From contig NC_089449.1 of assembly GCF_026210795.1 (NCBI RefSeq), positions 1,116,001 through 1,180,000 on the forward strand: 64,000 nucleotides of DNA, in the 5' to 3' direction. Shown here piece by piece: positions 13,440 through 62,698 of this stretch (the stretch's first letter is position 1; the number at the start of each line of letters is the position of its first letter). Source of the DNA: Rhizophagus irregularis (lineage: Eukaryota; Glomeromycota; Glomeromycetes; Glomerales; Glomeraceae). A program made the position numbers and the translations under genes. Below the pieces are notes generated by a model, which worked only from the letters and a program-made list of their open reading frames with translations, searched no databases and was not told the origin of the DNA.

Positions 13440-14235
13440 ATTCTAATCATTTATACCGAAGTGTAGATGGATATAAAGAATTTTATTACAATTTACTTAA
13501 TATAATCACATATTTAGTTTCAATTCCGAACTGTAGATGGATAAATCGTAAAGAATTTTATTATCGTTTATTCTAGTCATATATATACTGAACTTATAGA
13601 TGGATATAAAGAATTTTATTACAATTTACTAATTACTTAATATAATCACATTTTTAGTTTCTATGCCGAACTTGTAGACGGATAAATCGTGAAAAATTTT
13701 ATTATCGAGTCATATATTTTGTTTCAATGCGAATTTATAGATGGACAAATCGTAAAGAATTATTATCGTTTATTCTAGTCATATAATTAATTTCAATACC
13801 GAACTTATAGATGGATGTAAAGAATTTTATTACAATTTATTATAATCACATTTTTAGTTTCAATTTCGAACTGTAGATGGGATATAAAGAATTTTATTAC
13901 AATTTACTAATTACTTATTATAATCACATATTTAGTTTCTATGCCGAACTGTAGACGGATATAAAGAATTTTATTACAATTTACTAATTACTTAATACAA
14001 TCACATATTTAGTTTAATGCCGAACTTGTAGATGGATAAATCGTAAAGAATTTTATTATCGAGTCATATATTTAGTTTCTATGCCGAACTGTAGACGGAT
14101 GTAAAGAATTTTATTACAATTTACTAATTACTTATTATAATCACATATTTAGCTTCTATGCCGAACTGTAGATGGATACATTGTTAAAAAATTTTATTAC
14201 AATTTACAATAATTTATTCTAGTTTCAATTCCGAA
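13440..14235. repeat. Tandem repeat, 62-80 bp unit, ~12 copies
   Basis: The unit runs AAAGAATTTTATTACAAT, then TTACTTATTATAATCACATA, then TTTAGTTTCTATGCCGAAC, then TGTAGATGG. Copies of the CCGAAC word start near 13456, 13526, 13588, 13665, 13728, 13798, 13866, 13943, 14019, 14084, 14160 and 14231. Unit length varies through small deletions. A short plus-strand ORF at 13358-13576 runs into it and is not considered a gene. Confidence 0.85.
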
Positions 14236-58727: not shown

Positions 58728-58904
58728 TATACATGCCACCCAAATTATTTTGGACTGCTGTAATTATAAGTAAAATCCCAAATTCAATTATGGCATCCCA
58801 AATTATTTTGGCACTTTACATAGTAAATTATATATAAACCGAATGAATTATGACATCCCAAATTATAATTATGGCATCCCAAAATAATTTGGGCAGCATG
58901 TATA
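58728..58904. mobile_element. 177-bp MITE, perfect 8-bp duplication TTAACTTA
   Basis: The left TATACATGCCACCCAAATTA and the right, reverse-complemented, TATACATGCTGCCCAAATTA begin 26-bp inverted repeats with two mismatches, ending TTTTGG. TTAACTTA flanks both sides (58720-58727, 58905-58912). Internal copies of GGCATCCCAAATTA and related words make the interior partly self-similar. No ORF. Confidence 0.9.
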
Positions 58905-60145: not shown

Positions 60146-60153
60146 ATCCAGAC
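60146..60153. repeat. Target duplication ATCCAGAC (left)
   Basis: Perfect match to 62691-62698 on the other side of the nested palindromic element. The match extends by TA if the element's first two bases are counted. Confidence 0.85.
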
Positions 60154-60299
60154 TAGAGTTCCAAATGGGTCAGGTCAAGTCAGGTTAATTGATAAACCTG
60201 ACCTGAAATTTTTTTTCAGGTCAGGTCAGGTCAGGTTATATCAGGTTGTCTGTTTGACCTAACCTGACCTGAAACCTGAAAAATTTCAGGACTATTTTT

Positions 60300-60555
60300 A
60301 TTAAAGTATTGGAAAAAAACGGTACAAAACTTTTTTTTTTTAATATAATATTATGGAAAAAAAAACGTTTTTGCAACGTTTTTTATTAAAATATTGAAAA
60401 AAATATTGCAAAATGTTTTTATTAATATAACATTATGAAAAAAATGTTTTTGCAATGTTATTATTGAAATATCAAAAAAAAAAATGTTACGAAACATTTT
60501 TTTAATATAATATTATAAAAAAAATGTTTTCGCAACGTTTTTTCTCGAAATATTG
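60300..60555. repeat. Tandem hairpin repeat AACGTTTTTGCAACGTTTT
   Basis: About three to four units of roughly 75-85 bp, each with GAAAAAAACGTTTTTGCAAC followed by GTTTTTTATTAAAATATTG and variants. Part of the left arm of the nested element. A shorter AACGTTTTTTAATTGAAATA counterpart lies at 62205-62230. Confidence 0.75.
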
Positions 60556-60874
60556 TGATTCAATATTTTTATATTAAAATCATATAAAAAAGTGAATCCC
60601 AATACTGCAATTCACTTTTTTTATATAGAATTAATATAAAAAAGAGAGTTGCGATATCGCAATTTACTTTTATTATATAAAATCAATATAAAAAAGTGAA
60701 TCGCAATACCACAACTAGAGCTCCGCAACCTGACCTGACAGATCGGGTGACCCGACGGGTTGACCCGAAATATTCAGGTCAGGTCATCAATTTACGACCT
60801 CGACACGGCGGGTCGGGCCGGGCTAGTAGTCGGTACCCGATTCCCGACCCGTTGACCCGACATATATTTGGGTC

Positions 60875-62110
60875 AAATAAATTAAAAACACCGAAACTAA
60901 TAGTTCTGGAGTTTTTACATGTAAAATCAAAAGGAAAAATGCCGGAACTAATGATTCCGGCGTTTTTACATGTAAAATTGAAAAAAACGCCGAAACTAAT
61001 AGTTTCGGCATTTTTACATGTAAAATCAAAATGAAAAATGCCGGAACTAATGATTCCGGCGTTTTTACATGTAAAATTGAAAAAAAAATGCCGAAACTAT
61101 CAGTTTCAGCGTTTTTACATGTAAAATCAATATGAAAAACGCCGGAACTAATGATTCCGGCATTTTTACACGTAAAATTCAAAAAAAACGCCTGAAACTA
61201 ATAGTTTCAGCATTTTTACACGTAAAATCAAAATGAAAAATGCCGTTTTAACTTTAATGATTCTACGTTTTTACCACATAAAATTCAAAAAAATGCCGAA
61301 ACTATCAGTTTCGGCGTTTTTACTATGTAAAATCAGTATGAAAAAGCCGGAATTAATGATTCCGGCGTTTTTATGTAAAATCAAATGAAAAATGCGGAAC
61401 TAATGATTCCGGCGTTTTATGTAAAATCAAAGCGGAAACTATCAGTTTCGGCGTTTTTTATGTAAAATCAATATGAAAAACGCCGGAACTAATGATTCGG
61501 CCGGTTTTTATATAAAATTGAAAAAAAAAATGCCGGAACTATCAGTTTGCTTTTGACATGTAAAATCAATATGAAAAATGCCGGAACTAATGATTCCGGC
61601 ATTTTTACATGTAAAATTAAAAAAAAATGCCTAGTCGCGTTTTAATGAAAATCAATAAGAACGTATCAGTTTAAGGCGTTTTTACATGTAAAATCAATCA
61701 TGAAAAACGCCAGAACTAGCATCGCGTTTTACATGTAAAATCAAATGAAAAATGCCGGAATAATGATTCCGGCGCTTTTACATGTAGAATCAAAAAAAAT
61801 GCCGAAACTATCAGTTTCGGCGTTTTTACATGTAAAATCAATATGAAAAATGCCGGAACTAATGATTCGGCGTTTTACATGTAAAATTGAAAAAAAACGC
61901 CGGAACTATCAGTTTCGGCGTTTTTTTATGTAAAATCAATATGAAAAACGCCGGAACTAATGATTCCGGCGTTTTTACATGTAAAATCAAAATGAAAAAC
62001 GCCGGAACTAATGATTCCGGCATTTTTACATCTAAGATCGAAACAAAAATGCTGAAACAAATAGTTTCGGCGTTTTTATATATAAAAACAAAAGTAAAAT
62101 GCCGGGACCC
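60875..62110. repeat. Palindromic satellite, ~50-bp monomers in A/B dimers
   Basis: Two hairpin monomers alternate: A with CGGAACTAATGATTCCGG and B with CGAAACTATCAGTTTCGG (or AATAGT in place of ATCAGT). They are separated by the palindromic linker TTTTTACATGTAAAAT and an A-rich spacer. Successive A monomers start at 60941, 61040 and 61141, a dimer period of about 100 bp. Roughly two dozen monomers are present; those at 61370-61760 carry small deletions. Each arm keeps pairing despite substitutions. Long ORFs on both strands here (for example 60823-61182) are translations of the repeat, not genes. Confidence 0.9.
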
Positions 62111-62690
62111 GACGTTTTTTCAATAAAAATTAAAAAAAATCTTTTTTTTTAATTAAAAACGTCGAACCTGACGTTTTTTGTATAATTAATAAATAAAACG
62201 TTACATAACGTTTTTTAATTGAAATATTTAATAATAAAACTTCGGGTAACCTGAGTTACCCGAAGTGACATGAATACTTTGGCAATGCATTGGACGGCCA
62301 GGTCGGTCAGAACGGTTTACCCGTGAATTCGACCTGACCTGAAAAAATTCTCTTGCCGCAACCTAGGTAACCCGACCCGAACCTCCCGTAATCTGCAGGC
62401 TTTTTGTCTAACCACAACTCACTTTTTTTATATAGAATCTATATAAAAAAGTGAATCGCAATACTGCAACTCACTTTTATTATATAAAATCAATATAAAA
62501 AAGTGAATCTCAATACTGCAACTCACTTTTATTATATAGTAGAATCAATAGTTTCAGGTCAACAGGTCAATCAGGTCAGATCAATCTTCATATCTGACCT
62601 GAATTTTTTTCAAAAATCTCATACTTGACCTGAATTTCAGGTCAGGTCAGGTCAGGTTATTTGAATTTGGCTGACCTGTTCAGAGCTTTA

Positions 62691-62698
62691 ATCCAGAC
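62691..62698. repeat. Target duplication ATCCAGAC (right)
   Basis: Right-hand partner of 60146-60153. Confidence 0.85.

Follow-up and report, generated by a model that had tools for sequence, protein, structure and literature searches.

The 64-kb stretch of Rhizophagus irregularis DNA that was analysed here, called the window below, contains a 2537-bp block in which different repeats are stacked in mirror order around a satellite, and the question is how such a block came about. The initial annotation described it as a nested palindromic element, delivered as one insertion. The block starts with TAGAG, ends with CTTTA and is flanked by two copies of the 8-bp sequence ATCCAGAC; the letters of the window confirm the duplication and the ends of this ~2.54-kb block exactly where they were first placed. 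From the outside to the centre, and on both sides, the layers are GACCTG/CAGGTC motifs, AGTGAATCGCAAT units, GACCCG motifs and a 51/101-bp satellite (Table 1). GACCTG/CAGGTC is outermost on each side, with some copies further inward too. The mirror order of the four layers therefore stands as first described, but the large palindrome does not. Exact copies of AGTGAATCGCAAT are found twice, at 60695 and 62450, in the same orientation, and an exact reverse-complement copy was not found anywhere in the 64-kb window, which means that the block has no single big inverted repeat despite the mirrored layers. The pairing is chiefly inside the individual repeat units, and the left and right arms match each other because the units themselves are palindromic. 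The longest open reading frames inside the block are at most 119 aa, no transposase gene was seen among these short frames in either of the two elements described below, and the two frames beside the block gave no Pfam family.

Table 1. Features of the block, with positions in the window; A is the outer and B the inner element.
Feature	Position	Strand	Basis
Target duplication of A, left (ATCCAGAC)	60146..60153	+	duplication and unoccupied paralogues
Outer element A, non-autonomous, hAT-like, nested B included	60154..62690	+	family copies and duplications
A left terminus, TIR TAGAGTTCCAAA (family form TAGAG[CT]TCCGAA), subterminal GACCTG/CAGGTC	60154..60290	+	sequence and family copies
A-layer hairpin array, 40/80 bp, AACGTT...AACGTT hairpins	60335..60543	+	DNA folding, z -2.5
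A-layer 52-bp hairpin array (AGTGAATCGCAAT...), left part, split by B	60558..60715	+	DNA folding, z -8.2
Target duplication of B, left (ACCACAAC)	60708..60715	+	exact repeat
Inner element B, 1695 bp, nested in A	60716..62410	+	duplication and family copies
B left terminus, TIR TAGAGCTCCGCA, subterminal GACC(C/T)G	60716..60880	+	family copies
B core, 51-bp hairpin satellite, 24 units extracted	60880..62078	+	DNA folding, z -4.8
B right part, AACGTT-type hairpins (by eye), GACCCG; end CTTTTTGTCTA instead of TIR TGCGGAGCTCTA	62106..62410	+	family comparison
Target duplication of B, right (ACCACAAC)	62411..62418	+	exact repeat
A-layer 52-bp hairpin array, right part	62415..62538	+	DNA folding, z -7.8
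A right terminus, GACCTG/CAGGTC, TIR ...CAGAGCTTTA (family form TTCGGAGCTCTA)	62551..62690	+	family copies
Target duplication of A, right (ATCCAGAC)	62691..62698	+	duplication

A search for other loci with the ends of the block had been proposed, and such loci exist. Our genome searches covered 146,748,485 bases in 32 contigs. The left 200 bp of A gave 385 first-look candidates, and the 40 that were scored, the window's own included, all had 95–100% identity over nearly the full query; the right end gave 194 candidates, 40 of them scored. Twenty copies were fetched and 19 have both ends, L020 being without a right end in its stretch. These 19 copies, the window copy not counted, are 696–1182 bp long, and 15 of them have perfect 8-bp duplications, as has the window copy; the duplication is absent in L006, L013, L017 and L019. 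The TIR of the family is TAGAG(C/T)TCCGAA/TTCGGAGCTCTA, with a few copies deviating at one end. The 12-bp end pattern TAGAGCTCCGNA, which is shared by A, B and others, occurs 376 times in the genome as compared to 7 times for the reversed control. A is a high-copy hAT-like family. The centre of the four copies that were inspected holds a variable count of 52-bp units and no B, and the lengths of the other copies make them too short to contain the inner element. Non-array DNA, perhaps captured or inserted, was observed in the array region of the A copy L009 (~510–705) and of the B copy L038 (~200–940, both in element coordinates).

The other comparison proposed was that with an empty site. The joined flanks of A match several loci continuously over the junction, the best with 93% (C19:3040849-3041037) and 91% (C21:1266636-1266825). 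The target site is single and unduplicated in all five paralogous loci that were aligned. It has the form ATCCAGAC in L043, ACCCAGAC in L041 and L042, and TCCCAGAC in L044 and L045, and in the last two loci a part of the left flank is missing. The unoccupied sites are thus paralogues of a repeated host locus, and not alleles. Scanning the whole window for other pairs of duplication and TIR was uninformative, with 5 pairs as compared to 4, 2 and 2 in shuffled controls. A stretch of 177 bp at 58728–58904, with the duplication TTAACTTA and inverted ends matching in 12/14 positions (TATACATGCCACCC), is maybe a MITE, the scan controls having given 2–4 chance hits.

A second duplication is found inside the block. 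An end with TAGAGCTCCG starts at 60716, and exact copies of ACCACAAC bracket the element that begins there. The left end of this element, B, gave 144 candidates in the genome and the right end 64, and 40 were scored for each. The 8-bp duplication is perfect in 17 of the 20 B copies fetched and matches in 7/8 positions in L024, and there is none in L023 and L036. The TIR is mostly TAGAGCTCCGCA, in some copies TAGAGCTCCGAA, and a few copies, including that in the window, deviate at one end. Perfect copies are 722–1779 bp long, and the length varies chiefly with the number of 51-bp units. The B family is found alone, without A, elsewhere in the genome, and the uninterrupted 52-bp units of the A copies are unoccupied B sites. 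Together, the second duplication and the separate B family imply that the layers are a B nested in an A, and that the window copy of A is so long because B landed inside it with its own perfect duplication. Judging from these sequence comparisons, it is almost certain that the block results from two successive cut-and-paste insertions, one of the hAT family A and then one of family B within A. Points that weigh against this are the altered right end of B in the window, the four A and three B copies whose duplication is absent or imperfect, the missing transposase gene for B and C, and the paralogous nature of the unoccupied sites.

Could the block instead be one composite fold-back element, with layers made by fold-back replication, that was inserted once? 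The mirror order of the layers and the perfect outer duplication would agree with this, but the duplication inside the block would not, nor would the fact that each of the two families has copies lacking the other. The AGTGAATCGCAAT copies are also direct and not inverted, and nesting is seen again at L058, an A element within an A element with the inner duplication GTTTTCGC and no outer one. We reject a fold-back or single-insertion origin on the inner duplication and the separate families, and consider its probability to be negligible. The delivery as one insertion claimed by the initial annotation is contradicted on the same grounds. Of the two sources that it offered for the layers, successive insertions are borne out by the inner duplication and by the copies of each family without the other, and fold-back replication is not needed. 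For family B, the duplications support the idea of the initial annotation that so large a satellite travels within a transposon.

Something can also be said about the order of events in the nested pair. The right end of B in the window is noncanonical, CTTTTTGTCTA, with a perfect duplication adjoining it, and it was probably damaged after the insertion. At 62384–62410 the canonical right TIR of B is lost and other bases lie between CCCGT and TCTA, possibly a repair scar at a transposon end. Among 115 matches to the 52-bp units of A, the second CpG site is CG in 60, TG in 49 and CA in 3. The ACCACAAC duplication in the window has the CA form on both sides, which suggests that the change from CG to CA is probably older than the insertion of B.

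The hAT-type insertion with an 8-bp duplication, as first proposed, is supported by the duplications, the shared ends and the unoccupied paralogues. The TIRs are short, within 10–25 bp, in A (TAGAG(C/T)TCCGAA), in B (TAGAGCTCCGCA/TAGAGCTCCGAA) and in a third family, C (TAGTGCTCTACA), described below. Members of the Ac/Hermes group prefer T at position 2 and A at position 7 of the target, often G-T...A-C. In 46 duplications (16 from A, 18 from B, 4 from C and 8 from other elements), read on both strands, G1/C8 is found in 38/92 as compared to 14% expected, and T2/A7 in 51/92 as compared to the 36% expected from base composition. The bias over these duplications resembles the preference of that group. 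Neither A nor B showed a transposase gene among its listed short frames, and to that extent the elements might belong to a different superfamily, such as P or Merlin, that also makes 8-bp duplications. Such an origin is very improbable, since the short TIRs start with TAGAG, the duplications are biased to G1 and T2, resembling the hAT target preference, and L054, which has the same TIR as A, encodes a hAT domain. Helentrons and Helitrons are not known to duplicate their target, and membership there was rejected on the perfect 8-bp duplications of A and B. Foldback membership was rejected too: instead of long TIRs made of tandem repeats there are TIRs of ~12 bp accompanied by short motifs, and the arrays lie internally, in direct order. 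As for MITEs, the copy number is high (the 376 exact TAGAGCTCCGNA ends), and with 0.7–1.9 kb the elements are longer than is usual for MITEs.

Seven loci with long hAT frames (L046–L052) were fetched in the search for an autonomous partner. Two of them, L048 and L049, combine TAGAGCTTT ends with 8-bp duplications; L048 contains an open hAT frame of 732 aa and L049 one of 731 aa, the latter matching the Hermes transposase with E 2.5e-18. Their subterminal motifs are of ATCC type, so that they look like cousins and were rejected as partners. The nearest to an autonomous partner of A appears to be L054 (C1:1469432-1473332), a 3901-bp element with A's 12-bp TIR at both ends and a perfect duplication, whose right end has 84% identity to the left end of A over 73 aligned columns. 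The frames of L054 resemble hAT transposase; one of the seven pieces scanned, the last, passes the Pfam cut-off (Dimer_Tnp_hAT, E 9.6e-6), the others gave weak or no hits, and as read the gene is either broken or split by introns. Three further loci were examined: the matching end of L053 is merely 104 bp of an A right end, L056 is an A copy plus other A-like pieces beside a hAT fragment, and both were rejected; L055 has no frame of 90 aa or more. For B and C, no transposase gene was found between ends that match theirs across the subterminal repeats, the TIR type alone being shared. A genome-wide search with the hAT dimerisation domain yielded 836 first-look candidates, and all 150 that were scored were above the cut-off, which points to a large hAT load.

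The arrays of the block are predicted to be tandem DNA hairpins, where each unit folds on itself. Eight stretches were folded as DNA, and five of them had z values of -4.1 to -6.7, one -3.6 and one -2.1, while a 52-mer cut across the hairpin had -1.7. We also picked 24 of the 85 tandem-array rows of the window, some of them overlapping, and folded no more than their first 110 bases. The z values of the four arrays in the block are those of Table 1, as compared to -2.1 to +1.7 for the other 20 rows; the 40-bp array, with -2.5, is barely past the best array outside the block. The four arrays are built from three different unit sequences, and all are hairpins. Among the other tandem arrays of the window, those at 1909–2330 (46/91 bp) and 13453–14199 (63–140 bp) are not hairpin-rich.

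To describe the variation in the hairpins we used 448 units of the 51-bp array from 23 B and 6 C loci. The eight stem columns that make up four CpG sites have transitions in 699/3555 cells, and five hand-picked non-CpG C/G columns, with columns 26, 38, 10 and 11 excluded, have them in 15/2151, that is, ~28 times more in the CpG columns than in the non-CpG columns compared. Of the excluded columns, 26 and 38 distinguish two types of unit, with variation in about half of all units, and the C/T and A/G variation of the spacer columns 10 and 11 would agree with a further decayed CpG. The CpG pairs 21-43, 22-42, 24-40 and 25-39 are without covariation, 153–400 of 500 shuffles being as good, while the pair 26-38 covaries (0/500 shuffles) and the pair 18-46 does so weakly (9/500). 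The pair 26-38 tells the two types of unit apart, and its covariation may go back to one old event. Since the stem variation lies mostly at CpG and is uncompensated, bar one covarying pair, it suggests methylation decay. In the available text of Dallaire et al. (PMC8647823) the transposons of R. irregularis are described as generally highly CpG-methylated, with low levels in older, short and expressed ones and in many recently expanded hAT copies. The CpG columns can be viewed as an internal clock, which might reveal how old many of the arrays are and how they were methylated in the past. The motif GACCTG of the A termini (60154–60290 and 62551–62690) differs from GACCCG of the B left terminus (60716–60880) by a CpG-to-TpG transition, and in the window copy the CpG count is 0 in both A termini and 16 in the B left terminus.

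Selection might also maintain the hairpins, if they served as precursors of small RNAs, as silencing signals or as enhancers of transposition. All four arrays of the block are hairpins in spite of their three unit sequences, two more hAT families carry such units as judged by eye, and R. irregularis both methylates its transposons and produces small RNAs at transposon loci (available text of PMC8647823). Against this, the stem changes at CpG sites are uncompensated; of 13 pairs one covaries strongly and one weakly, and for the 349 distinct units a covariation-based case for selection finds no support at the CpG pairs. We regard selection as unlikely. The published methylation and small-RNA data for R. 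irregularis make it testable, with no further sequencing, whether hairpin arrays attract silencing.

The 51-bp array is not confined to family B. Two core queries, each with 40 scored of ~210 candidates, gave at least 57 distinct loci (39, and 18 more). Eight core loci were without a B end in the scored lists. After fetching, L066 and L068 turned out to have B ends, and the six others belong to a separate family, C, with the TIR TAGTGCTCTACA, subterminal GCTCGAGC/CAAGCC and B's 51-bp array. The C loci fetched were twelve (L061–L065, L067, L069–L073 and L080, the last through blast). Their duplications are perfect in L062, L069, L070 and L072 and match in 7/8 positions in L064 and L065, and for the other six a single end was recognised in the sequence fetched. 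All 57 array loci among the matches listed could be placed in a family, 36 in B and 21 in C, through a matching end no more than 2.6 kb away or, in five cases, by fetching. At C15:4432517 and C15:4437796 (L080) a C copy may have its right end ~5 kb apart from its core and left end, perhaps split by an insertion.

The arrays of B and C are closely similar. With CpG columns masked, 65/113 C units share the hairpin sequence with B, and a diagnostic unit variant, AA(C/T)AAATAGT, occurs once, as the last unit, in 16/18 B and 6/6 C copies, being absent in L033 and L039. This common last unit and the identity of the cores imply that the two arrays are homologous blocks with the same right border, and the repeat cargo appears to be common to different transposon families in R. 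irregularis. B and C might have inherited the array from one ancestor, with the ends and subterminal motifs later turned over wholly and with no transfer. The shared part indeed runs past the array towards an AACGTT hairpin, and the B copies of a second subtype have right borders nearer to those of C. An AACGTT hairpin of ~31 bp in the right part of B also matches the left part of C (21/108 pairs at E 1e-5, 73/108 at E 1e-3), so that more than the array is common to both. Common descent fits less well with the flanks, which have a median identity of 90.8–94.5% in B-B and C-C comparisons and give no blast hit even at E 0.01 between corresponding sides of B and C (left-left and right-right, 0/108 pairs each), while the array cores are almost as alike between the families (median 84.2%) as within B (86.7%) and C (86.0%). 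We see such a descent as possible, though short of probable.

Hairpin arrays were met in further carriers as well. Family D, with four loci fetched, has the ends TAAAGCTC(T/C)GCATGAGCC and, by eye, an array of AACGTT hairpins; the duplication is perfect in L077 (ATGTCTAC) and 7/8 in L076, L074 has one end and L075 none. L057 (104–2495; C1:5557103-5559494) is 2392 bp long, with the perfect duplication CGCCAGAC and B-like ends, and its array differs from that of B in having GCCGTTTTGGC units, hairpins by eye. A 262-aa frame in L057 has sub-cut-off matches to a BED finger (E 0.001) and DUF659 (E 1.4e-5), and this segment looks like a further nested transposon piece. Tentatively, hairpin satellites could be interchangeable hAT cargo. 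Recombination, or template switching at the hairpins, would then carry blocks from one end family to another and give a single satellite the use of several transposases, and hAT families would repeatedly gain arrays of the same form from different sequences, with a hairpin of 25–36 bases, an A-run/T-run base and a period of ~40–52 bp.

The ends, duplications, unoccupied paralogous sites, copy families, nesting and unit structure, as well as the B array in family C, are observed directly. The history that they suggest for the block would be as follows. A family A hAT element without a transposase gene, and with a short 52-bp hairpin array, would have entered a repeated gene-like host locus and duplicated ATCCAGAC. 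A family B element with its cargo of 51-bp hairpins would then have entered a 52-bp unit of A and duplicated ACCACAAC. Both were most likely mobilised in trans by hAT transposases recognising the TAGAGCTCCG ends and the subterminal GACC(C/T)G motifs. The arrays would grow through duplication of units or dimers, by slippage or gap repair at the hairpins, CpG methylation would cause the C-to-T decay, and recombination, not a gradual exchange of the ends, would have brought the array block from one family into another.

As compared to other non-autonomous hAT elements and hAT MITEs, of which Mar is reportedly another example, the interior here is a hairpin array of variable length and not the remnant of a deleted transposase gene, in copies of 0.7–1.9 kb. 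The BuT2 MITEs are similar in their 8-bp duplications, 12-bp TIRs and short copies that share ends with coding elements (available text of PMC3942097). Tetris, a foldback element, has tandem repeats in a non-autonomous DNA transposon and a link to satellites, but its repeats lie within the TIRs (PMC4079207), whereas here the TIRs are ~12 bp and the arrays internal. The coral CMITEs are different-TIR MITE families with a conserved interior, one new element being born by insertion; they are of piggyBac type, and the available text does not describe the shared interior as a hairpin satellite (PMC2872659). In the open-access literature searched we found no hAT families with hairpin satellites, nor A, B or C described in R. 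irregularis. What appears to be new here is the set of hAT families carrying hairpin satellites; satellite arrays inside non-autonomous DNA transposons were known already. The families illustrate how cut-and-paste transposons disperse satellite DNA, and a satellite changing carriers is suggested. MITEs and Helentrons that contain tandem repeats are well known, and Xenopus Xstir and miDNA4, oyster CgHINE and Drosophila DINE are alike in having a satellite-like array with a varying number of units in a non-autonomous DNA transposon, with one array type occurring across different Helitron elements (available texts of PMC9659126 and PMC12628747, the last point from PMC12628747). Unlike these tandem-repeat MITEs and Helentrons, the carrier here is a hAT, each unit is a hairpin, and one block with the same terminal unit is found in two families with distinct ends.
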